Assembly (NCBI GenBank): GCA_002700095.1
Contig: PACL01000061.1
Coordinates: 18,032-82,031 of the forward strand
From: Fulvimarina sp.
GTDB lineage: Bacteria; Pseudomonadota; Alphaproteobacteria; Rhizobiales; Rhizobiaceae
Length of the DNA: 64,000 nucleotides
Direction of reading: 5' to 3'
The translations under genes and the position numbers were made by a program. Below, piece after piece: positions 12,797-26,050 of the stretch (within the stretch, counting starts at the first letter, position 1; each line of letters starts with the position of its first letter). The notes under the pieces were generated by a model. It did no database searches. It saw nothing but the letters and a program-made list of their open reading frames with translations, and had not been told where the DNA came from.

Positions 12797-13615
12797 ATGT
12801 CACTCCGTAGCCTCCCCGCGACGCTGCCGCTCAAGCGCGGAGCAGCCTGCGTCGCCGCGCTGGCGCTTCTGGCGATCCAGGGCTGCGCGTCGGTGTCCGG
12901 CGAGACGACGGGCTCGATCAGCCGCGCCGATCGCACCGGCGGCACCGTCGCGGCGATGTCGAACACCCAGCTGCACGGCGCCGTGGAATCCTACGGCTCG
13001 GCCTATCAGCAGAACCCCAGGGACAAGGGCACCGGCCTCTCCTACGCCGCGGTATTGCAGATGGCCGGGCGCAACGACCAGTCGCTGGCGGTGATGCAGC
13101 AGGTGGCGATCGCCCATCCGAAGGACCGCGACGTCCTGTCGGCCTACGGCAAGGCGCTGGCCGCCGCTGGCAACCTGCCGAAAGCGCTGGAGACGGTGCG
13201 CCGGGCCCAGACGCCCGACCAGCCGGACTGGCGGCTGTTCTCGGCCGAGGCAGCGATCCTCGACCAGATGGGCGATTCCGCGCAGGCACGGACGCTCTAC
13301 CGCAAGGCCCTCGACATCCAGCCGAACGAGCCGACGGTCCTGTCCAATCTCGGCATGTCCTACGTCCTGACCAACGACCTCGCCTCGGCGGAGCAGTATC
13401 TGCGGGAAGCGGCGAGGCAGCCGGGCGTCGACAGCCGGGTCAAGCAGAACCTCGCCCTCGTCGTCGGCCTGCAGGGACGCTTCGACGAAGCCAAACAGAT
13501 CGCCAGCGCCGAGCTGGCACCGGACCAGGCCAAAGCCAACGTCGCCTATCTGCAGCAGATGCTGTCCCAGCAGAACACCTGGTCGATGCTGAAGGACAAG
13601 GACAAGCGCAGCTGA
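12797..13615 (+). CDS. TPR-repeat lipoprotein, TadD-like
   Basis: 272 aa. The N-terminus has a lipoprotein signal peptide with lipobox LAIQGC, so Cys30 would be lipidated. Residues about 60-260 are tetratricopeptide-like repeats, for example AEAAILDQMGDSAQARTLYR followed by IQPNEPTVLSNLGMSYVLTN. Length and layout match TadD-type proteins, which support assembly of Flp/Tad pili, but no other tad gene is in the window, so the Tad assignment is tentative. A GTTAAC-rich CtrA-like element lies upstream. The MCP-like gene converges on it with a perfect 8-bp inverted repeat between. Confidence 0.8.
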   Translation: MSLRSLPATLPLKRGAACVAALALLAIQGCASVSGETTGSISRADRTGGTVAAMSNTQLHGAVESYGSAYQQNPRDKGTGLSYAAVLQMAGRNDQSLAVMQQVAIAHPKDRDVLSAYGKALAAAGNLPKALETVRRAQTPDQPDWRLFSAEAAILDQMGDSAQARTLYRKALDIQPNEPTVLSNLGMSYVLTNDLASAEQYLREAARQPGVDSRVKQNLALVVGLQGRFDEAKQIASAELAPDQAKANVAYLQQMLSQQNTWSMLKDKDKRS

Positions 13616-13648: not shown

Positions 13649-15415
13649 TCAAAACAGCATGTCGTCGATGTCGGCGGTTTCGGCGGCGTCAGCGCCCTCA
13701 TCCGTCGGGGCCGTGCCGCCTCCGATGACAGCGTCGTGGATCTGGCGCTCCACCTCCATCGTGTAGGCTGAGCGAAGCGCGGCGAAGAGAGCTGCGTGAT
13801 CATGCGGCTCGGTCGCAGGGTCGGATGACCCGGCCTCCTCCTGCACCGCCAGCTCGGCCTCCACCGCGTCCAGCTCGCGGACGAGACGATCCAGGCGTTC
13901 GAGCGCGGCGCCGGCATCCGAGGCGAGAGCCGCGGCGCGGGTGCCGACCTCGCCCAGAACCGACCCGACCGTCTGCATTCGTCCATCCACCGTCTGCAGG
14001 AGAACGAGGCTCCGCTCGGCCTCGGCGACCAGCATCGCCATGCTCCGCTCTTCCCCGTTGCGGCGCGCTTCGGCCAGTTCGGCGGCGATGATGCCGAGTT
14101 CGGACAAGGCCCCGGCGACGGTTTCGGAGCGGGTGACCATCTCGCCGACCAGCTCGCGCATCTGCAGGGAGACGACGCCCAGCGCCTTGCCCTCCTGGCC
14201 GAGATTGGAACAGCTGATGGCCGTGTTCAGGCTGACCAGGCGCATCTCAAATTCGAGTGTCCGCATTTCCCGGGAACAGGCGCCGAACATCTCGACGTCG
14301 CCGCCGATGGTGCGGGCCAGCGCCTCGACATGGCGGTGCTCCGCCTCGGAAAGCGACAGCTCCGCCGCCGCCCGGGCGATGTCCGCGGCGAGACGCCTGG
14401 TGCCGGGCAGGTCGGATCCGCCGCCCTGCTCGAGCTTGCTTATCAGCGCGTTGAAGGAGCGATCGATCCTGCGCGACAGGGCAAGGATCGCATCGCGAAT
14501 GTAGCTGGTCTCCGTGACGAGGCTGTCGCGGGTATCGGCGATCTGCGCCAGTTGCAGCCGCAGGATCGCCGGCTCCGCCGTCGGCGTTTCGCAGGCGACG
14601 GCGAGCGCCGCGGCGGTATGTTCCAGGCGTTGCCGGGTGTTGTCGCCGATCTGCATCGAGGCGACGATCGTCGAGGCCTCCTGGGCGATCTCCTGCGAGG
14701 CCGCCGTTGCAGAGGACCCGACGCTGCCGGCCCGGCCGCGTTCGGCAAGGGCACCGCTGAGATCGGCCTCGATCCGCTCCTTCAGGTTGGCAGTGGCGAC
14801 GCGCATGTTCCGCTCGAAGACAGCGCTGCGCGACGCGGCGTCCGACAGGAGCCTGCGCAGCCGCACCTGACCCTGCTGCAACTCGTCCACCACGATGGCG
14901 GCGCGCTTCGACAATTCGAGCACGTCGTCGGTGAAGACGGTCAGATCGGAATTGCCGTGGTTGCGCATCGAGGCGGCGGTCACCCGCGCATTGATGGCGA
15001 TCGCGGCGATCATGGCGACCGTCTGCCGCAAATCGTCGATCCTCGGCGTCGCCGCCGCGAGCGAGCGTGACAGCTGCTGGATCAGCGAGCGCTCATGCTG
15101 CGATCGCTCGACGAGATCGAGGCATTCGCCGACGAGCGCTCTGATGGCGGTTTCGGCCGAGGCGAGTTCCGGGCTCGCATGGGCCGTGGTGACGGCGCCG
15201 AAGGCCGACTGCATGTCGCCGAGAATGCCGACGCAGGTGACGAGGCGTTCCCCGATGCCGAGAAAGATCTGTTCGATCGCCGCGATCGCGCCGTTCAGCC
15301 GGTCGCGATGCCGAAGCAGCGCGGAAGCCGAGCCGCGATCGCCTTGCGTTTCGGCGTCTTCGTCGATCGAGTGGCAGGGGGGCGAATGGTAGGGGAAGGC
15401 CGCGAGTGCGCTCAT
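13649..15415 (-). CDS. Soluble MCP-like coiled-coil chemotaxis protein, last gene of the Che operon
   Basis: 588 aa from the ATG at 15415, which overlaps the cheB stop (ATGA); an upstream in-frame start at 15451 would lie inside cheB. No transmembrane segment or periplasmic domain is visible; the protein is almost all amphipathic helix. Two stretches resemble the MCP signalling tip in weakened form: [20 protein letters not shown] (about residue 130-150) and [20 protein letters not shown] (about 395-415), each followed by a helix like the one after the tip in true MCPs. It ends in TADIDDMLF, like CheY-binding peptides of FliM (EIDALL) and CheZ (VDDLL). A scaffold, sink or phosphatase-like partner of CheY is a possibility, but its role is unknown. 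Confidence 0.75.
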
Positions 15416-16557
15416 GATGCGGCCCTCGCCGCCTGTGCGGCCCCGGCGCAATGGCGGAGGATCTCCTCGGCGACCTTCTGCAGCGGCAGGACCTTCTCCG
15501 CGGCCCCGAGCTCGATCGCCTCGCGCGGCATGCCGAAGACGATGCTGGTCTCCTCGTCCTGGGCGACCGTGTGGGAACCCATCACCCGCATTTCCAGAAG
15601 ACCCCGTGCGCCGTCGTCGCCCATGCCGGTCAAAAGCACGCCCATCGCGTTGGCGCCGGCGTTCTGCGCCGCCGTGCGGAACATCACGTCCACCGACGGA
15701 CGATGGCGGCAGACATAGGGGCCCTCCTCGATCGCGACCGTATATCGGCTGCCGGCCCGGCGCAGCAGCATGTGCCGGTTGCCGGGGGCGATCAGGACAC
15801 GGCCGGCGATCACCTGATCGCCGTCGGTCGCCTCCTTCACCGCGACCGCGCAGATGCCGTCAAGCCGGCGGGCGAAGGCGGCCGTGAAGTTCTCCGGCAT
15901 GTGCTGGACGATCAGGATGGCGGGGCTTGCCGCCGGCAACCGCGTCAGGACCGCCGCGAGCGCCTCGGTGCCGCCGGTCGAGGCGCCGATGCAGACAATC
16001 GGTTCGGTCTTCGGGATAGAGCGGCGCAGCGAGGCGGCGCGGGTTTCGGAGATCGGCGGGACGACGACGTCCGCCAGATGCTTCGCCTCGACCACCATCT
16101 TCGGCTGGCGGCGTGCGCCGGCGCGGACCCTCGCATGGGCCGCGGCCTTGGCGACGTCGCAGATCAGCATGCGGGAATCGTTGAGGAACTGCGCCGTGCT
16201 CACCCGCGGCTTGGTGATGACGTCGACGGCGCCGGCGGCGAGTGCCTCCATCATCACGTCGGAATTCTCGGCGGCAAGGCTCGAACAGATGACCACCGGG
16301 ATCGGGCGCTGGGCCATGATCTTCCGCAGGAAGGTCAGGCCGTCCATGCGCGGCATCTCGATGTCGAGAAACAGGACGTCCGGCACCTGCTGGCGGATCT
16401 TCTCGGCCGCGAGATAGGGATCGGCGGCGGCCCCCATCACCTCGATCTGCGGATCGTCGGCAAGAATGGCGCTGAGGGTGGCGCGCACCGAAGCCGAATC
16501 GTCGACGATCAGGACCCGGATCTTCCCGCCGCCATCCGTCGAGGCTGTGGTTGGCAT
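15412..16557 (-). CDS. cheB: CheB protein-glutamate methylesterase/deamidase
   Basis: 381 aa. The N-terminal receiver domain ([14 protein letters not shown]; phospho-acceptor Asp65 in [11 protein letters not shown]; Lys in ITKPRV) is joined by a linker of about 40 residues to the methylesterase domain. The catalytic residues are in place: Ser193 in [11 protein letters not shown], His219 in [10 protein letters not shown] and Asp315 in [11 protein letters not shown]. CheB removes methyl groups from receptor glutamates, activated by CheA phosphorylation, giving adaptation. It starts 10 bp after cheR and overlaps the start of the MCP-like gene by ATGA. Confidence 0.96.
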
Positions 16558-16567
16558 CGATCCCTCC

Positions 16568-17455
16568 TCAAGACTTCTGGAAGACGGTCGGCCCGACCTG
16601 CCGAACGCTCGATTCGACGACGACCATGGATTCGGAGTGGCCGACGACGAGATAGCCGCCCCGCCGCAGATGGCCGACGAGGCGGGCGACGACCGCTTCC
16701 TGATCCGCCTTCTCGAAATAGATCAGAACGTTGCGCAGGAAGATGATGTCCACGTCGCGATCATAGGGATACTGCGTATCCATCAGGTTCATGCGATTGA
16801 ATTGCGCGCGCTGGCGCAGCTCCGGGACGATCCGGACCTCGCCGCGAAGCTCCGGGTCACGGCTCTCCATGACGTAGCGCTGGCGCTTGTCGGTCGGCAC
16901 CGGCTCCATCGCCTCGGCCGGGTAGACCGCCCGGCGGGCCTGTTCCAGAACGACCGTCGAGATGTCCGTGCCGAGAATGGCGTAGCTGAAGTTTCGGCGT
17001 TTGCGGGCCATGTCCTCGAGCACCATGGCGATCGACCAGGCTTCGGCACCATTGGAACTCGCCGCGCTCCACACCTTGAGCAACGGTCGCGGCCGGGTTT
17101 GCGACAGCAGCGCGTCGACCATGCGGGTTTCCATGAAGTCGAGATGGTCGGGCTCTCGGAAGAAATCGGTCTTGTTGGTGGTCACGACGTCGATCAGGTG
17201 GGTGATCTCGGATTCGAGCCCGCCCTGGTCGAACAGGAAACGACAATAGGCATTGAGATTCGGTTGATTGCGGGCGCGCATGCGCTTGCGCAAGCGTCCC
17301 TCGATCATCAGCTGCTTTGCCGGCGGCAGCTTGATCCCCGTTTGGCTTGTGACGAGCCCGGCGAGCCGCTCGAAATCGGCCGGGGAGATCTGGTCGTTCA
17401 CGACTGCCGGGCGGTAAGATCGGCCACCCTCATCGACCGCTGAAGAAAGAGCCAT
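16568..17455 (-). CDS. cheR: CheR receptor glutamate O-methyltransferase
   Basis: 295 aa from the ATG at 17455, chosen because AAAGG lies 9 nt upstream; ATGs at 17461 and 17464 are too close to it. The N-terminal helical domain ([20 protein letters not shown], then [10 protein letters not shown], the basic receptor-contact helix) precedes the SAM-binding domain: [17 protein letters not shown] corresponds to the CheR GCSTGEEPYS motif with Ser-Asn-Ala replacing Thr-Gly-Glu-Pro, and [13 protein letters not shown] is the typical NVLIYF motif. It methylates MCP glutamates for adaptation. The 298-bp gap upstream holds no gene. Confidence 0.93.
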
Positions 17456-17753: not shown

Positions 17754-18215
17754 CTAGGCGGCGGCTTCGTTCGCCACGTCGATGGCGAACAGACGATCGA
17801 GATCGAAGACCGTGACAAACGCGCCGTTGCGCCTGCCGACGCCCGCGACGCAGTCGGCCTGCCAGCGCGTTCCCATCCGGGCGGGCGGTTCCAGCGATCC
17901 GGCATCGAGTTCCGCCACCTCGAAGACCCGGTCGGCTCTCAGCGCGACCTTGCGCTGCTCCCCGTCGATCTCGACCTCGAGCACGATAATGCGCGTGTCG
18001 AGCGTGTCCTCGGCCGCCGGCATCGCCAGGCGCAGGCGCAGATCGGTCACCGGCACGCTCTGGCCGCGCACGTCGATGACGCCGAGGAAATCGGCCGGCG
18101 CCCGCGGCATCTTCGCAAGGGGCTGCGGCTCCAGGATTTCCTGCACCCGGGCCACCGGGACCGCGAAGAGGCTGTCGGCAACGCCGAGGGTGACATATTG
18201 CGTGTGGTCGGCCAT
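17754..18215 (-). CDS. cheW: CheW chemotaxis coupling protein (second copy of the operon)
   Basis: 153 aa from the ATG at 18215 with GAGGAA at good spacing; ATGs further upstream run into the mcp gene and lack a site. A single CheW domain: QYVTLGVADSLFAVPVARVQ, FLGVIDVRGQSVPVTDLRLR and ALRADRVFEVAEL. It bridges CheA and receptors. It lies 70 bp after the second mcp. It resembles the other operon CheW (22652-23152) in its central motif, including a DTRIIVLEVEIDGE segment, so the two are probably an old duplication that accompanied the duplication of the mcp genes. Confidence 0.92.
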   Translation of the reverse strand: MADHTQYVTLGVADSLFAVPVARVQEILEPQPLAKMPRAPADFLGVIDVRGQSVPVTDLRLRLAMPAAEDTLDTRIIVLEVEIDGEQRKVALRADRVFEVAELDAGSLEPPARMGTRWQADCVAGVGRRNGAFVTVFDLDRLFAIDVANEAAA

Positions 18216-18285
18216 CTCGATTCCTCGCATCAGGTTGGACGTCGCCCCCGGCCGGGAGCCGGAGGCAGGTTTGAGATGCGCAGGA

Positions 18286-20247
18286 CTATGCGGCATGGCC
18301 GTTGCGGGTGAAGCGGCTGTCCAGTTCGTCGCCGCCGTCGTTCAGGTCGAGGTCAAAGCCGCCGCCCGTGGCCTTTGAGGGGCGCTTGAACGCCATGGAC
18401 GGTGCCGCCGCGCGAATGATCTCCTGCATGTCTGCGACGGCGTGGCCCGGTGTCTTCTTCCCGGCGTTCGCCTTGCGGGGCGCCGAGGCTATCGCCATTC
18501 CGCCCGCTCCGGTCTGCTCGATCCGGAAATAGGAGATCGCCTGCTGGAGCTGCTCGGCCTGGCTCGCCAGCTCTTCCGACGTCGAGGCCATTTCCTCGGC
18601 GGCGGAGGTGTTCTGCTGGGTCCCCTTGTCGAGCCGCTGGATCGCCGTGTTGATCTGCGCGGCGCCGGCATTCTGCTCGCGGCTGGCATTGGAGATCTCC
18701 GCGACGAGTTCCGCCGTGCGCTGGATGTCCGGCACCAGCCGGGTCAGCATGTCACCCGCCTGCTGCGCCGCCTTCACCGTATCGCCGGACAGGCCGGAGA
18801 TCTGCTGGGCCGCCGCCTGGCTGCGCTCGGCGAGCTTGCGCACCTCGGAAGCCACCACCGCAAAACCACGGCCGTGTTCGCCGGCCCGGGCCGCCTCGAC
18901 AGCCGCGTTCAGGGCGAGGAGATCGGTCTGGCGAGCGATTTCCTGGACGATCAGGATCTTCTCGGCGATCGTCTCCATCGCCTTGACGGCCCTGCCGACG
19001 GCCTCGCCGCTGGCCTGGGCATCGCCGGCGGATTGCCGCGCGATTGTCTCGGTCTGCTGGGCGTTCTCGGCATTCTGCTTGATGTTCGAGGCCATCTCTT
19101 CCATCGACGAGGAGGCTTCCTCGGTCGACGAGGCCTGTTCCGTCGCACCCTGCGACAGTTCTTCAGAGCTTGCGGAAAGCTGCTGGCTGCCAGACGAGAC
19201 GTTGTGAGCGGCCGACAGCGCGTCGCCGATGATCCCACGCAGGCGGTGGACCATGCTCTGCAGGGCGAGACCGAGCGTGTCCTTGTCCGACAGCGGCTTC
19301 GGCTCGACCGTCAGATCGCCCGCCGCGATCTGATCCGCCACCCCTGCCGACTGCCGGAGGTTCTTGACCATCTGCTCGAGAGAGAGGCCGAGCGTGTCCT
19401 TCTCCGACAGGGGCTTGGGCTGCACCGACAGATCGCCGGCGGCGATCTGGTCGGCGACGCCGGCGGCGCCCTTCAGATTGGCGATCATGTCCTTGGCGTT
19501 GGCGAGGAGGCTTGTCGTGTCGCCCTTGGCGGTCGCGACCTCGACGCCGAGATTGCCGACGGCGATCTCGCGGATGATGGCGACGGTGTAGTCGGGCTCG
19601 CCACCGAGCTGCTTCAGGATGCTGCGGCTGACGAGGACGGCGACGACGATGCCGACGACGAGGGCGAAGCCGATCATCGACAGGACGATCATCCGCGCAT
19701 TTTCATAGTCGACGGACGCGGCGTCACTTGCCGCCTTGGCGCCGTCCTTGTTCATGTTGACGAGATGCAACATGTCCGCCGAGAAGTCGTCGAACAGGTT
19801 GCGGCTTCCATCCAGGGTCGCGACGGCCTGATCGTTCAGGTTCTGCCGCGACTGGGTCAGCATCCGCTCATGCTGGGTCATGTACTGCGAGAATTTGGCA
19901 GCGAACTGCTCGTAAAGCGCCCGCTCTTCAGGCGAAGAGATGAGCGCCTCGAAGTCCGCCCTGTGCTCCTTCAATCGCGACAGCAGCTCCGCCACATCGG
20001 TTTCCACGGCCCGCATCGCCGACGAGTCGAGGGTGGCGACGTGGCGATATTCGAGGATGCGCAGGTCCGACGTATCCGTGTTGATGCGATTGACCGCGTC
20101 GACGCTCGGCAGCCAGTTCTCCGCGATCACCGTAGAGGCGTCGTTGATGTCGCTCATCTTGACGATCGCCAGGCCTCCCAGCGCCATCATCAAAATGAGC
20201 AGCGAGCCGAATGCGGCGGCAAATTTCGCCTTGAGTGAAAGTCTCAT
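18286..20247 (-). CDS. Methyl-accepting chemotaxis protein with 4-helix sensor and tandem HAMP-like repeats
   Basis: 653 aa from the ATG at 20247. TM1 is about residues 7-30, followed by a periplasmic four-helix-bundle sensor (about 31-185, typical 4HB_MCP opening with [20 protein letters not shown]) and TM2 at about 187-210. Then comes a HAMP and two near-identical 39-residue HAMP-like units, [20 protein letters not shown] and [20 protein letters not shown]. The cytoplasmic domain carries the canonical tip [20 protein letters not shown]. The C-terminus has a Gly/Asp-rich tail ending [15 protein letters not shown], shared with the neighbouring MCP, with no NWETF-type CheR pentapeptide. Inner-membrane receptor; ligand unknown. 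Confidence 0.93.
18524..19155 (-). repeat. Near-identical duplicated signalling-domain DNA (copy 1 of 2)
   Basis: About 630 bp of the mcp signalling domain matches 20773-21404 in the next mcp gene with only scattered substitutions, at a constant offset of about 2249 bp. The genes' sensor halves are unrelated in sequence, so the similarity stops sharply. This suggests duplication plus gene conversion or strong selection on the tip domain. Confidence 0.85.
19235..19468 (-). repeat. Two tandem 117-bp units encoding HAMP-like segments
   Basis: Each unit encodes 39 residues beginning [12 protein letters not shown] and continuing with a PKPLS-(E/D)KDTLGL segment. They are adjacent, in frame, and probably arose by internal duplication within the mcp, extending the poly-HAMP stalk. 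Confidence 0.8.
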
Positions 20248-20340
20248 TTTCCCTTGTCCTCTGACGCTCGACGGAAGCAGCCCCGTCGCAGCCGCGATAC
20301 CCACCCGTTGCCGGGGATGATCATGCTGCCACCGCGCGCC

Positions 20341-20540: not shown

Positions 20541-22655
20541 TCAGGCGGCGCGGCCGCTGCGCGAGAAGCGATTGTCGAGCTCGTCGCCGAAGTCGTCCAT
20601 GTCGAGGTCGAAGCCGCCGCCGCCCTTCCTGGCGGCGCTGCGGCTGGCCGACATCGCCGGTGCCGCGACGCGGATGGCGTTCTGCATGTCGGCGACGGGG
20701 CGGCCCGGATTCTTGGCAAAGCCACCCGCACGCTTGACCGGCATCTCGGCGAGGCCGCCCGACTGCTGAAGCCGGAAGTAGGAGATCGCCTGCTGGAGCT
20801 GATCGGCCTGGCTCGCCAGCTCTTCCGACGTCGAGGCCATTTCCTCGGCGGCGGAGGTGTTCTGCTGGGTCACCTTGTCGAGCTGCTGGATCGCCGTGTT
20901 GATCTGCGCGGCGCCGGCATTCTGCTCGCGGCTGGCATTGGATATCTCCGCCACCAGCTCGGCCGTGCGCTGGATGTCCGGCACCAGCCGGGTCAGCATC
21001 TGGCCGGCCTCCTGCGCCGCCTTCACCGTATCGCCGGACAGGCCGGCGATCTGCTGGGCTGCCGCCTGGCTGCGCTCGGCGAGCTTGCGCACCTCCGAGG
21101 CCACCACCGCGAAGCCGCGACCATGCTCGCCGGCCCGTGCGGCTTCGACCGCCGCGTTGAGGGCCAGAAGATCGGTCTGGCGGGCGATCTCCTGAACGAT
21201 CAGGATCTTCTCGGCGATCGTCTCCATCGCGCTGACGGCCTTGCCGACGGCCTCGCCGCTGGCCTGGGCATCGCGGGCCGACTGGCGGGCGATGATCTCG
21301 GTCTGCTGGGCGTTGTCGGCGTTCTGCTTGATGTTCGAGGCCATCTCCTCCATCGACGAGGAGGCTTCCTCGGTCGACGAGGCCTGCTCCGTCGCGCCCT
21401 GGCTCAGCTGTTCGGCCGCGGCCGACATTTCCTGGCTGCCGGAAGAGACGTTGCGCGCCGCGCCCGTCACCTCGCCGACGACGTTCCTCAGCTTCGACAC
21501 CATCATGTTGAGGGCGTCGATGAGATCCTTGATCTCGTCGTCGGTCTTGACCGAGGCGCTGGCGTCGAGATCGCCGTCGGCGACCGAACGTGCGAGGCCA
21601 AGAGCGCTGGCGATGGCCCGGCTGATATTCAGGACGATCCAGGTCGCGGCAGCCGCTGCGAGCAGGGTCGAGCCGATCAGAAGCCCGAGCAGAAGGTTGC
21701 GGGAGAACACGTAGAGATCCTCGGCCGCAGCGCTCGCTTCGTCCATCTGATGGGTGTTCAGATCGATGATGGCGTTGAGGGCATCGACCGACTTCTGCCG
21801 GGCCACGGCCGCACCGCCATTGGCGAGCTGGAAGGCGAAGTAGTCACCGTTCTCGAGGGCGATCGCCTGCGCTTCCTTGACGACCGGGAGCCATGCGGCG
21901 ATGCCGTCCCTGAAGGTGGCGAAGGTTCGGCTCTCACTGGCCGGCAGAAGCGCGCCGACGCTGTCGAGTTCGCCGCCGAGTTGGGCGATGTCCTTGTCGA
22001 GAGCCTCCGAATACGGCGTCTGCGCGTTCGGATCGCTCATCGTCAGCAGAACGTCGCGCAGATTGAGAGACGCCTGCGTGACGGTCCCCTCCAGGTCGTT
22101 CGCGGCCTCGTAGACGCGGAAGATCGCTGCATTGCCGCCACCGGCGGTCGCTGCGATACCGAGCCGCTGGACCATGGCGCGATACGGATCGAGCGCCGCT
22201 CCGGCGAGCCGGCCGGCCTCCTCGACCTTTTCCAACGCCCGCGTGGCCGAGTTCAGGTCGGAGAGGTCCTCGACCTTCTTGTGCTCCGCCATGAAGCCGT
22301 TCCAGGTCTCGGTGAAGGTGTCGACGAGTGGCTTGCCCGCCTCGCTCGACATCTCTCGCAACTTCGCCACCTCCTCGCGGAGTGCCGCCTCTTCCCGTCC
22401 GATCTGCGTACGGAACCGGTCGAAGTCCGCCGGCGTATTTGCGAGGATGTAGTTCTTTTCATCGCGGGCGATGCGCAGGGTGCGGGCGTTGATCGTTGCG
22501 GCGAGTTCGGTGCGGGCGGCGTTGCCCTTGACGATGCCCTCGATCGAAGCGTTCAGATCGCCGAGATTCTGGATCGCCACGAACATGCTGATGCCGGACA
22601 GTGCGACGATGACCGCGAAGGTCGTTCCCAGCTTGGCCTTCAGGGTCAGTCTCAT
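20541..22655 (-). CDS. Methyl-accepting chemotaxis protein with large helical sensor
   Basis: 704 aa from the ATG at 22655, which overlaps the stop of cheW (ATGA); the open frame upstream is a cheW shadow. TM1 is about residues 8-30; a periplasmic helical sensor of about 290 residues follows ([18 protein letters not shown] is typical of the HBM/CHASE3-like helical bimodular class); TM2 is about 325-348 ([20 protein letters not shown]). Then a single HAMP and the signalling domain with the canonical tip [20 protein letters not shown]. The C-terminal tail [15 protein letters not shown] is shared with the next MCP. Two-module helical sensors of this type bind small organic acids in known cases; the ligand here is not known. 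Confidence 0.93.
20773..21404 (-). repeat. Near-identical duplicated signalling-domain DNA (copy 2 of 2)
   Basis: The partner of 18524-19155; see that entry. The identity covers the tip and flanking methylation helices and falls off before the HAMP region. Confidence 0.85.
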
Positions 22656-23152
22656 CGATCGGTCCTTTCGTGCGCGGCCAGGGACGAGTTCCTGTCTCCC
22701 TCTGCCCTGATGATTCGGTTCATGTCTGGGATGATGACGAAGTCGTCGTCGCGCCGGCCGATGCCCCGCACGAATTCGGCCGGCCAACGCATGCCGACCC
22801 TTGGTGCTTCCTCGATCGAGGCGGCGGTGATGTCGGTGACGTCGTAGACCTTGTCGGCGAGGATGCCGGCGACCAGCGGCTCGCCGTCGAGATCGATTTC
22901 CATGACCACGATGCGCGTATCGGCGTCCGGCGGCGGCCGGTCCATGCCGAAGCTGACCCTGAGATCGGCGAGCGGCACGACGCTGCCGCGCACGTTGATG
23001 AGGCCGCCGACGAAGTCGCCGGCATTCGGCACGCGGGTGATCGGGACCGGGTCGAGGATCTCGCGGACATGCGTCGCTTCGAGAGCGAACATCTCGTCCT
23101 GGAGCCGGATGGTGAGGGCATGCATGCCTTTGGTCTCCTGCCGGTCGCTCAT
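22652..23152 (-). CDS. cheW: CheW chemotaxis coupling protein (first copy of the operon)
   Basis: 166 aa from the ATG at 23152, which overlaps the cheA stop (ATGA). One CheW domain: [40 protein letters not shown] and [20 protein letters not shown]. Its stop in turn overlaps the mcp start at 22655, so cheA, cheW and mcp are translationally coupled. It also has a C-terminal extension of about 12 residues ([13 protein letters not shown]) not usual for short CheW proteins. An alternative ATG at 23125 (MHALTIRL) would remove nine residues before the domain. Confidence 0.93.
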
Positions 23153-25218
23153 GCTGCCCGTCCGAGGGTTTCGGCGCGGCGGCGCTCCTCCAGCTTCTGG
23201 CCGAAGGCAACGAGATGGATGACGTCGAGAATGAGGGCGACGGTCCCGTCGCCGAGGATCGTCGCGCCCGAGAAGGTCTTCAGGCCGGAATGCAGCCGGG
23301 AGAGCTGCTTGATGACGGTCTGGTTGTTGCCGATGATCTGGTCGACCACGAGCCCGACGCGGGTGGTGTCGGAAGCCACCACCACGACCTTCTGGAAGGG
23401 ATCCGGCCGGCCCTCGGTGTTGAAGACCTGCCTGAGCTTGAGGAAGGGCACGAGCTCGCCGCGCACATTGAGGAAGCTGCGCCCACGCGCATCGCCGTCG
23501 ACGCCGGTCGGCAGTTCGAGACATTCCTCGACGGCGGCGAGCGGGATCGTGTAGCGATCCTCGCCGACGCGCACGAGCAGGCCGTCGATGATCGCCAGCG
23601 TCAAGGGCAGGCGCAGGGTCATGGTCGTGCCCTTGCCCGGCCGCGTCTCGACGTCGATCGAGCCGCGCAGGCCGTCGATCGTGCGCTTGACGACGTCCAT
23701 GCCGACGCCGCGGCCGGACAGCGCGGTGACCTGCGACGCCGTCGAAAAGCCCGGCTGGAAGATCATCCGGTTGAGTTCGGCCTCGGAGACCGGCTGGCCG
23801 GGCGCGATCAACCCGGCCTCCTCGGCCCGCCGGCGAATGCGCTCGCCATTCAGTCCCGCGCCGTCGTCGGAGACGGTGATCGCCACCTCGGCGCCGCGAT
23901 GGCTCGCCGAGAGGCGCAGCGTCCCCGCCGCCGGCTTGCCGCTCTCAGCGCGCCGCGCGGCATCCTCGAGGCCGTGATCGATCGAGTTGCGGATCAGATG
24001 GACGAGGGGATCGGCCAGTTGCTCGATCACCGTCTTGTCGAGTTCGGTGTCTTCACCCTCGGTGACGAAGTTGATCGACTTGCCGAGCTCTTCGGACAGA
24101 TCATGGACGAGCCGGCGGAACCGTCCGAACAGCGAGCCGATCGGCACCATGCGGGTGCCCATGGTGGTGTCGCGCAGGCTGGATGTCAGGCGCTCGATCT
24201 CTTCCGCGACATTCACCAGGGCGGGATCGTGGATGGTTTCGGCAAGCTGGCTGAGCCTTGCCTGGGCGATGACGAGTTCGCCCACCCGGTCCATCAGCTC
24301 GTCGAGCCGCTCGGCCGGAACCCTGAGCGTCGCGTTGCGCTCGACCTTGCCGGCCGACGAGCGCGCCGCCGGCTCGGCGGGCAGACGCCCGGCAGGCGCG
24401 GAACTCGCCGCGGTGAGCGAGGAGGCCGCTGCGACTTCCTCCGGGCGGACTGCCGCGGCTCTCGGCATAGCCGACGCTTCGGTCGGGGTGGCGGGTTCCG
24501 CCTGCGTCCCCTCCTCCGACAGCGGCTCGATCAGAAGCTCCATGTCGTCGCGCACGAACAGGAAGACGTCGTCGACGGCTTCCTGCGGCACGTCGCCCCG
24601 GAGCGTGACGTCCCAGGTAAGGTAGCACTGCTGCGGCTCGATCCGGTCGAGCGGCGGCACGTCGGCAATTTCGGCCGAAACCTCGCAGGGCCCGAGGCCC
24701 CGCAACTCGTCGAGAAGAAGCAGCGGGTTGGTGCCCAGCGTCAAAGCGTCGGCGGGCAGGCGAAAGCGCACGTGCCAGCCGGTCACGGCGGCAGGAGCCG
24801 CGACGCCGGCCACCGGCTCAAGCTGCGCGACAAGGACCACCGGTGCATCGCCGCTGACGGCGACCTTCAGCGCGGCGAGGATCGCCTCGCCGCGGGCCGG
24901 ATCAACGTCCGGATCGTCGATCAACCGGGCGACATGATCCCGCGCTTCGAGAGCGGCGGCGATCAGCCGGCGGTCGGCTGCGGCCTCGCCCTTGCGAACA
25001 CGGTCGAAGGCCGTCTCGAACTCGTGGATGAATTCGGACACGGCGACGAAGCCGAACATCGCTCCAGAGCCCTTGAGCGTATGCAGGGCCCGGAAGGCCA
25101 GCCCGACGAGCTCGCTGTCGTCAGGTCGTTTTTCCAGATCGAGAAGCGCCTGTTCCAGCGTTTCGATCAGATCGGCGGCTTCCTGGCGGAAGACTTCGGC
25201 GGGATCGAGGTTGCTCAT
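23149..25218 (-). CDS. cheA: CheA chemotaxis histidine kinase
   Basis: 689 aa with the full domain order. P1 Hpt has the phosphorylated His46 in [16 protein letters not shown]. The middle P2-like region (about 140-235) is followed by a Pro/Ala-rich linker. P3 dimerisation begins about residue 300 ([20 protein letters not shown]). P4 ATPase has the N box [18 protein letters not shown]1 [11 protein letters not shown] and G2 [13 protein letters not shown]5 is CheW-like (about 555-680). It autophosphorylates in response to receptor state and passes phosphate to CheY and CheB. Its start codon overlaps the cheY stop and its stop overlaps the cheW start, both by ATGA. Confidence 0.96.
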
Positions 25219-25586
25219 CAGGCGCCGACAATCTTGCGCATGATCGCCAGAAGCTGGTCCGGCTTGAAGGGCTTCACCATCCAGCCGGTGGCGCCCGCCT
25301 GCTTGGCCTGCGCCTTCAGAGCGTCGTCCGACTCGGTGGTGAGGAAGACGATCGGCACGCCGCTGCTCGCGGGCGTGGTGCGGTACTGGCGAATGAAGGA
25401 AAGCCCGTCCATGCCGGGCATGTTAAGATCGGTGATGACGGCATCGACGCGGTTTGCCGCCGCCTTCTGCAATGCCTCGCGGCCATCGCAGGCCTCGACG
25501 ACGTTGTAGCCGGCCTGCTTGAGCGTCATGCCGACCATCTGCCGAACCGAGGCCGAATCGTCGACCATCAAGATCGTCTTGCTCAT
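25218..25586 (-). CDS. cheY: CheY single-domain response regulator
   Basis: 122 aa from the ATG at 25586 ([16 protein letters not shown]); a near start at 25598 would add four residues. Standard CheY features are in place: acidic pocket Asp9-Asp10, phospho-acceptor Asp53 in ITDLNMPGMDG, Thr83/Thr84 in FLTTES and Lys105 in MVKPFKP. It carries the signal from CheA to its output target. No flagellar gene is present here, so the output may not be motility. It precedes cheA with a 4-bp overlap. Confidence 0.95.
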   Translation of the reverse strand: MSKTILMVDDSASVRQMVGMTLKQAGYNVVEACDGREALQKAAANRVDAVITDLNMPGMDGLSFIRQYRTTPASSGVPIVFLTTESDDALKAQAKQAGATGWMVKPFKPDQLLAIMRKIVGA

Positions 25587-25720: not shown

Positions 25721-26050
25721 TTAGGTCGGGCTGGGCTTCAAGCTGTCCCGGAACGCGTCAGCCAGACCGGCCATGTCGATGGCGAGATCGAGCGCGCCCC
25801 CCGCCCCTGCGTCGATCGACAAAGTGTGGCCGGCTGCAGCGGCGGACTTGCTCGCCGACACCAGGAGCTGAAGCACGCAGACATCCACGCCGGTGAGGCC
25901 GCGGGCATCGATCCGCATGTCGGACCCGGCGCGTTCCCGAAGGGCCGCAGCGATTTCGTCGACGTTGCGGATTCCGCAGTCACCGGCCAACTCGAAGCCC
26001 TGCGAATCCTGGGTTCGGCCTGCAAGTTCAATATGCTCAGATCGGCTCAT
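25721..26050 (-). CDS. STAS-domain protein, first gene of the Che operon
   Basis: 109 aa, a single STAS fold like those found at the head of alphaproteobacterial Che operons and in MlaB/anti-sigma antagonists. Features: IELAGRTQDSQGFELAGDCG, then RIDARGLTGVDVCVLQLLVS. In SpoIIAA-like STAS proteins the segment DSSGL carries the phosphorylated Ser; here the corresponding residues read DVCVL, so it cannot be phosphorylated there. It starts the operon 134 bp before cheY. A scaffolding or docking role with CheA/CheW or receptor complexes is possible but unproven. Confidence 0.85.
   Translation of the reverse strand: MSRSEHIELAGRTQDSQGFELAGDCGIRNVDEIAAALRERAGSDMRIDARGLTGVDVCVLQLLVSASKSAAAAGHTLSIDAGAGGALDLAIDMAGLADAFRDSLKPSPT

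Follow-up and report, generated by a model that had tools for sequence, protein, structure and literature searches.

A chemoreceptor-like protein with a CheZ-like motif at the end of an F8-type che operon of Fulvimarina, a candidate CheY~P phosphatase

The last gene of a chemotaxis operon of Fulvimarina sp., here termed gene X, represents a real, widespread and unnamed protein family. Because two receptor-type hairpins of its product bear a CheZ-like motif and a CheZ-like tail, X is probably the off-switch of its chemotaxis system. On the reading favoured here as probable, X would be a CheY~P phosphatase that resembles CheZ, is built on a scaffold derived from chemoreceptors and serves an F8 system; both catalysis and CheY binding are inferred from sequence.

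Gene X was found in a window of 64,000 nucleotides, the whole stretch of DNA analysed, on contig C28 (genome size 5.6 Mb). The genes on the minus strand are arranged in the order STAS, cheY, cheA, cheW, mcp, mcp, cheW, cheR, cheB and X, as follows.

25721..26050, minus strand: STAS-domain gene, first of the operon (PF13466)
25218..25586, minus strand: cheY, whose product is the proposed substrate of X (PF00072)
23149..25218, minus strand: F8-type cheA (Pfam match; CheA relatives)
22652..23100, minus strand, start approximate: cheW, first copy (homologues at the same place in related operons)
20541..22700, minus strand, start approximate, open frame to 23210: second MCP gene (PF00015 at C28:38899-39321)
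18286..20304, minus strand: MCP gene with PF12729 and PF00015 (Pfam domains)
17754..18296, minus strand: cheW, second copy (PF01584)
16568..17443, minus strand: cheR (PF01739, PF03705; open frame extends to 17905)
15412..16557, minus strand: cheB (PF01339, PF00072)
13649..15415, minus strand: gene X (588 aa), which closes the che operon (open reading frame; ATGA overlap with cheB)

Beyond X lies a convergent plus-strand ORF (12797-13615). The junction between cheB and X reads GCATCATGAGC, in which the cheB stop (TGA) and the X start (ATG) overlap in ATGA, an arrangement as in translationally coupled genes. This agrees with the coupling proposed in the initial annotation, and the helical 588-residue frame that was said to end the operon was likewise recovered. 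The operon resembles F8 operons such as Che2 of Rhizobium leguminosarum, both being ordered cheY-cheA-cheW-mcp-cheW-cheR-cheB with an extra cheW, and further F8 operons of comparable make-up are described in the same sources (PMC7617929, PMC8429497). In the available text of these two articles the described F8 operons contain no named gene like X. The F8 label given here to the CheA set of the window derives from gene order, not from published class models; its CheA belongs to the same subfamily as that of the relatives' F8-type operons, which share the gene order.

The protein itself (P0001) matched Pfam at sub-threshold level only (E 3.9 or worse), gave no match in NCBIfam and found a single PDB chain by sequence, at E 1.1 and thus nothing significant. 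These searches leave standing two earlier statements, that X has no ligand domain and that it fits no standard Che protein. Family-wide counts refer to an alignment of 51 rows, namely 26 full-length X sequences and 25 further loci from a survey of the order. Outside it are L040 (an ordinary MCP by sequence and BLAST match), L044 (a broken X-like stretch), L097 (a frame that ends early and still reads HDITRQRLEH), the full-length phylum-survey matches G958 and G1023, which are outside the sequence set, and L178, L182 and L183 (DITRQ, DITRQ and DIARQ), which are not included in the counts. Hydropathy over 19 residues peaks at 1.48 in X (residue 132), compared with 2.99 and 2.05 in the two MCPs of the operon, and so reveals no strong membrane segment, again as first described; values of 1.6 or more occur in 10 of the 51 homologues (maximum 1.89).

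Five stretches of the protein are central to its interpretation.

14921..15001, minus strand: first, weak MCP-tip-like stretch, residues 139-165 (N-half against MCPs; turn at 150-156 in the structure model)
14618..14653, minus strand: QxGDxTRQRxEH with a CheZ-like DxxxQ, residues 255-266 (most conserved 12-mer of the 51 homologues; aligns with the CheZ active site)
14144..14254, minus strand: second MCP-tip-like stretch, residues 388-424 (C-half against MCPs; turn at 403-405 in the model)
13736..13765, minus strand: YTMxxERxIH family signature, residues 551-560 (conservation and DNA-pattern search)
13652..13681, minus strand: acidic tail ending IDDMLF, residues 579-588 (acidic-LF ending in 50 of 51 homologues)

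Two weakened receptor tips, near residues 130-150 and 395-415, had been suggested for X, and profile comparisons substantiate both. With 10 MCPs of this genome, the C-half (residues 340-530) aligned in hhalign at a score of 86 (E 1.1e-12), far above the best of 60 column shuffles (22.1) and the reversed profile (24.1), and the N-half (residues 25-330) at 37.6 (E 1.9e-4; best shuffle 22.1, reversed 21.1). Judged by these alignments, the second tip is clearly homologous to MCP tips, and homology of the first has moderate support. The turns predicted by structure modelling fall near the ranges first proposed, in models of intermediate confidence (pLDDT 72.9 and pTM 0.49 for the full chain; 82.0 and 0.45 for the N-half alone). 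The two halves also align with each other at E 3.6e-5, a value without a shuffle control. The nearest family match of the X homologues is the MCP signalling domain: PF00015 was matched at E 1 or better in 17 of 26 (best 1.2e-8) and not at all in P0001, and the family profile retrieved the MCP structure 2ch7 from the PDB at E 4e-19. MCP cytoplasmic domains also rank first in Foldseek for the full-chain model and occupy ranks 1-6 and 8-10 for the N-half model; the fits are loose, and further coiled coils rank below the MCPs. X thus shares helical hairpins and tip sequence with the MCP signalling domain, and differs from MCPs in its two tandem hairpins, the lack of a sensor domain, a mostly basic residue at one tip position and the CheZ-like motif and tail.

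The most conserved 12-mer of the family is neither tip, but the segment of residues 255-266, which went unnoticed in the initial annotation; the YTMxxERxIH stretch, here residues 549-560, comes next, followed by the second tip. Q255, G257, D258, Q262, R263 and H266 are invariant in all 51 rows, R261 and E265 are each present in 50 and T260 in 44. The aspartate and the glutamine four residues on thus occur throughout the alignment, on one helix in the model (residues 255-276), as in the phosphatase motif DXXXQ of CheZ (PMC7750401) and CheT (PMC12654446). In CheZ, a water molecule is oriented onto the phospho-aspartate by the glutamine, and the acidic residue forms a pair with a lysine of CheY (PMC3035606). 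The CheZ proteins of the order mostly read ACxFQD[IL]TGQR and mostly end in or near QDDIDALF (18 proteins, from 20 loci after L075 and L086 were left out). In a local profile alignment with these 18, X lands on D, T, Q and R of the catalytic motif with a score of 33.4, compared with 25.4 for the best of 100 column shuffles that preserve the heptad phase and 18.5 for reversed X. The motif segment alone fits CheZ at E 1.7e-4 and MCPs at E 0.083. Given that these are single-pair E-values and that the hhalign probability of X versus CheZ is 12-49%, common descent of the motif is plausible, not proven; a convergent origin would serve the functional reading equally well.

X and CheZ have in common a DxTxQR catalytic-type motif on a helix, an all-helical make-up, a flexible linker and an acidic C-terminal tail. 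They differ in length (about 588 residues versus 224-304 for most CheZ frames), in the two MCP-like hairpins, in the IGD of X where CheZ has FQD, and in the CheZ profile PF04344, which did not match P0001 up to E 10. PF04344 was also absent from the most frequent 25 of the 74 families matching 26 X homologues, and no chain named CheZ occurred among the best 60 of 71 PDB matches of the X profile or the 50 Foldseek rows listed for either model. X was consequently rejected as a full homologue of CheZ, the likeness being confined to the 42 columns of the local alignment without any Pfam or PDB profile match. Homology between CheZ and MCP hairpins outside the motif was discarded as well: X deprived of its motif scored 26.1 against CheZ (best of 100 shuffles 25.4), a motif-less set of single-hairpin relatives 23.0 (best shuffle 21.8) and ordinary MCPs 22.4.

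These relatives are three partial matches from outside the class (L179-L181), 371-428 aa long, with hydrophobic N-termini and PF00015 over its cut-off. They combine a canonical LNAxIEAARAGE tip with FQDRVSQ, FQDRADQ or FQDIIRQ, where FQDxxxQ is the CheZ signature, with a YTM-like stretch (YTMQDERELH, FTTAEERQGR, YVMEDQRRIH) and with tails ending in ITFF, ITFF or IELF. All three lie near che-gene matches, and in two of them cheY and then cheA are the next matches downstream. At FQDxxxQ their profile aligns with CheZ at a score of 35.7 (best of 100 shuffles 21.8). The same profile aligns with the N-half of X through the motif at E 7e-13 and, within the full-length profile, with the C-half at E 5e-19. 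This match to both halves suggests that X is a tandem duplicate. The simplest account, drawn from three sequences only, would be duplication of a single-hairpin protein, after which one copy kept the active site and the other the signature and the tail. A longer history is conceivable, yet in our estimate doubtful: a membrane-anchored single-hairpin receptor with a canonical MCP tip would have gained a CheY-binding tail along with the active site of CheZ, then become duplicated in tandem and shed its anchor to yield X; CheZ might descend from the same hairpin by shortening; and X would dock on or in the F8 array and remove CheY~P at its place of formation. For the descent of CheZ from a receptor, support is limited to the motif, the motif-less alignments being near shuffle level.

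A CheY-binding-like C-terminus had been recognized early, and the ending IDDMLF now proves to be a family trait: an acidic-LF tail closes 50 of the 51 homologues and resembles QDDIDALF, as found in most CheZ proteins of the set of 18. As in CheZ, the peptide comes after a linker, and residues 554-588 of X, modelled with low confidence, are probably flexible. The one exception, L032, ends early, and no tail was seen in the frames past its stop. This is the X of Jiella sonneratiae (L032:7980-9665); the same species has a second, broken X-like stretch (L044:9421-9770) next to a match to a CheY-like receiver. Pentapeptides of the CheR/CheB type follow the pattern W-x-x-F; this pattern is missing from the tail, and such an identity was dismissed. 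Upstream of the tail lies the nearly invariant signature; a DNA pattern for YTMxxERx[IV]H had 12 matches in 41 genomes, every one in an X gene, and the reversed pattern used as control had none. A protein that binds CheY~P without catalysis, its tail capturing the regulator and its receptor-like body holding it near the array or off the motor, would account for a conserved tail behind a variable linker and for the hairpins. We regard such a scaffold or sink as improbable, since it leaves unexplained the most conserved part of the family, a DxxxQ helix far from the tail, as well as the FQDxxxQ of the single-hairpin relatives.

A glutamate at the MCP tip contacts CheA and CheW. It is present in all 10 aligned MCPs; the equivalent position of X is 401, occupied by serine in P0001, by arginine or lysine in 37 of the 51 rows and by glutamate in none of the 48 rows listed. 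This bears on the idea that X is a ligand-free pseudo-receptor which enters the F8 array by its second tip and modulates CheA without acting on CheY~P directly. The clearly MCP-like second tip speaks for such a role, as do the canonical tips of the single-hairpin relatives and their PF00015 matches over the cut-off; it nevertheless appears unlikely in view of the replaced glutamate and of a tip that is not the most conserved part of X. Least probable, and disfavoured by tip spacing and the motif-only comparison, is that DxxxQ survives from the MCP methylation helix (MDxVTQQN) in a degenerate receptor whose likeness to CheZ would be accidental. In that helix, 8 of the 10 aligned MCPs of this genome do have a Q four positions after a D, and the helix is reached when MCPs are aligned with the N-half, but the distance from the tip asparagine to the motif is about 115 residues in X (median 115, range 107-116) and in the single-hairpin relatives (115, 115 and 117), compared with 100 to the D/Q of the helix in 8 MCPs, and the segment alone fits CheZ and not MCPs.

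The family was traced in searches of increasing breadth. Among the 61 nearest relatives, 16 genomes matched X at E 1e-3, one of them (G046) with an ordinary MCP, and a search of the genome collection gave seven X loci from Jiella, Aurantimonas and Fulvimarina. Plasmid copies occur in Agrobacterium, Shinella, Rhizobium, Methylosinus, Novosphingobium, Sphingomonas and Azospirillum; plasmid searches with P0001 itself and with C-terminal parts of L181 and L179 had no matches. Four annotated plasmid records call the product a hypothetical protein (two), a chemotaxis protein and a type VII secretion target. The last name belongs to the Shinella copy (L102:11956-13680) and is probably a misannotation that stems from weak WXG100/EspC Pfam matches seen in a few homologues. 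In the wide surveys the best three or four candidates per genome were scored for the X profile and for CheA and up to 10 for CheZ, which makes every count of presence a minimum. With a threshold of E 1e-20, X was present in at least 28 of 297 genomes of the order and at least 19 of 398 of the phylum, four of the latter outside the class (one full-length and three partial). In the class survey at least 191 of 385 genomes matched at E 1e-3, the weaker matches among those listed covering mainly the C-half, as expected of MCPs; at E 1e-20 only the own genome and four others remained among the best few candidates per genome.

X tracks F8-type CheA. In the order survey the CheA relatives fall into two sets, of which the first comprises the CheA of the window together with 27 proteins of 55-64% identity, each from a different genome, and the second all the remainder, at 41% or less. 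Among the 297 genomes, by lower-bound counts, 25 have both X and F8-type CheA, three X only, three this CheA only and 266 neither (Fisher p 7e-30, with the relatedness of the genomes not corrected for). Of the three genomes with X only, G603 and G697 retain a cheB-like gene next to X. The gene adjoins several operon genes in 8 of 10 full-X loci of one set and 3 of 3 of another, in all seven plasmid loci, in 18 of 25 order-survey loci and in all three full-length copies fetched alongside L179-L181; in the other 7 of the 25 order-survey loci it is located away from the operon. Five genomes of one genus (g399; L149-L153) have X alone, with no che-gene match within the fetched 18-20 kb, and in four of the five F8-type CheA is present but apart from X. 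On plasmid p1 of Agrobacterium leguminum (L098:11971-15684) a ParA-family gene separates X from cheB, a hint that the array or X itself is actively positioned.

The genome of the window yielded no CheZ match. A genome-wide replacement of CheZ by X, suggested by the 61 nearest relatives, was abandoned after the survey of 297 genomes: CheZ was over its cut-off in at least 172 of them and in at least 13 of the 28 that bear X (p 0.23). Since CheZ is not significantly depleted there, X can be system-specific at most. A second che cluster on contig C2 encodes CheA, CheD and, adjoining cheD, a 113-aa ORF with DHTTQ and the tail DDDLELFG, which appears CheT-like by position, DHTTQ and tail. Both che systems of this genome would therefore have a protein that combines DxxxQ with a tail. 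The last residues of this cluster's CheD (P0003, L161:12321-12854), GDVDLF, form another short acidic-LF tail; X, the CheT-like ORF and CheZ have similar ones, and the docking signal is possibly the same. In Sinorhizobium meliloti the F7 cluster encodes CheT, a short CheZ-like binding partner of CheR (PMC12654446). According to the available text of that article, X resembles CheT as a CheZ-like product of a Hyphomicrobiales che-operon gene that has DXXXQ and no clear similarity to known Che proteins; unlike CheT, the CheR binder of the F7 cluster, X has 588 residues and belongs to the other che operon. With this length and a place outside the cluster of the CheT-like ORF, X does not qualify as CheT.

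Of the roles offered in the initial annotation, a scaffold, sink or phosphatase-like factor binding CheY or CheB, CheY as partner is strengthened by the tail and the operon, and the phosphatase option gains most because the most conserved segment, DxTRQR, aligns with the CheZ active site. For the phosphatase reading, the motif, the tail, the operon and the single-hairpin relatives concur, while the CheZ profile test fails. In the proposed mechanism the acidic C-terminal peptide would tether CheY~P through the flexible linker and helix 255-276 would present D258 and Q262 to the active site of CheY, where Q262 would orient the attacking water and D258 would pair with the CheY lysine. The scaffold would consist of tandem-duplicated chemoreceptor signalling hairpins in place of the CheZ scaffold, the first having kept the active site and the second the YTMxxERxIH signature and the tail. 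Docking of X on the receptor array is a possibility that we likewise infer.

If this is true, X would end signalling in F8 systems, and D258 and Q262 form a precise candidate active site. For the F8 operons of rhizobia and Bradyrhizobium, no signal-termination protein is named in the available text of PMC8429497 and PMC7617929. Present in at least 25 of the 28 order-survey genomes with F8-type CheA, X is a candidate for this function. It would be, to our knowledge of the open-access literature, the first case of a chemoreceptor-like scaffold carrying an active site of the CheZ type, although subscription journals could hold another. Such a site on a receptor-like scaffold would bear on the origin of CheZ.
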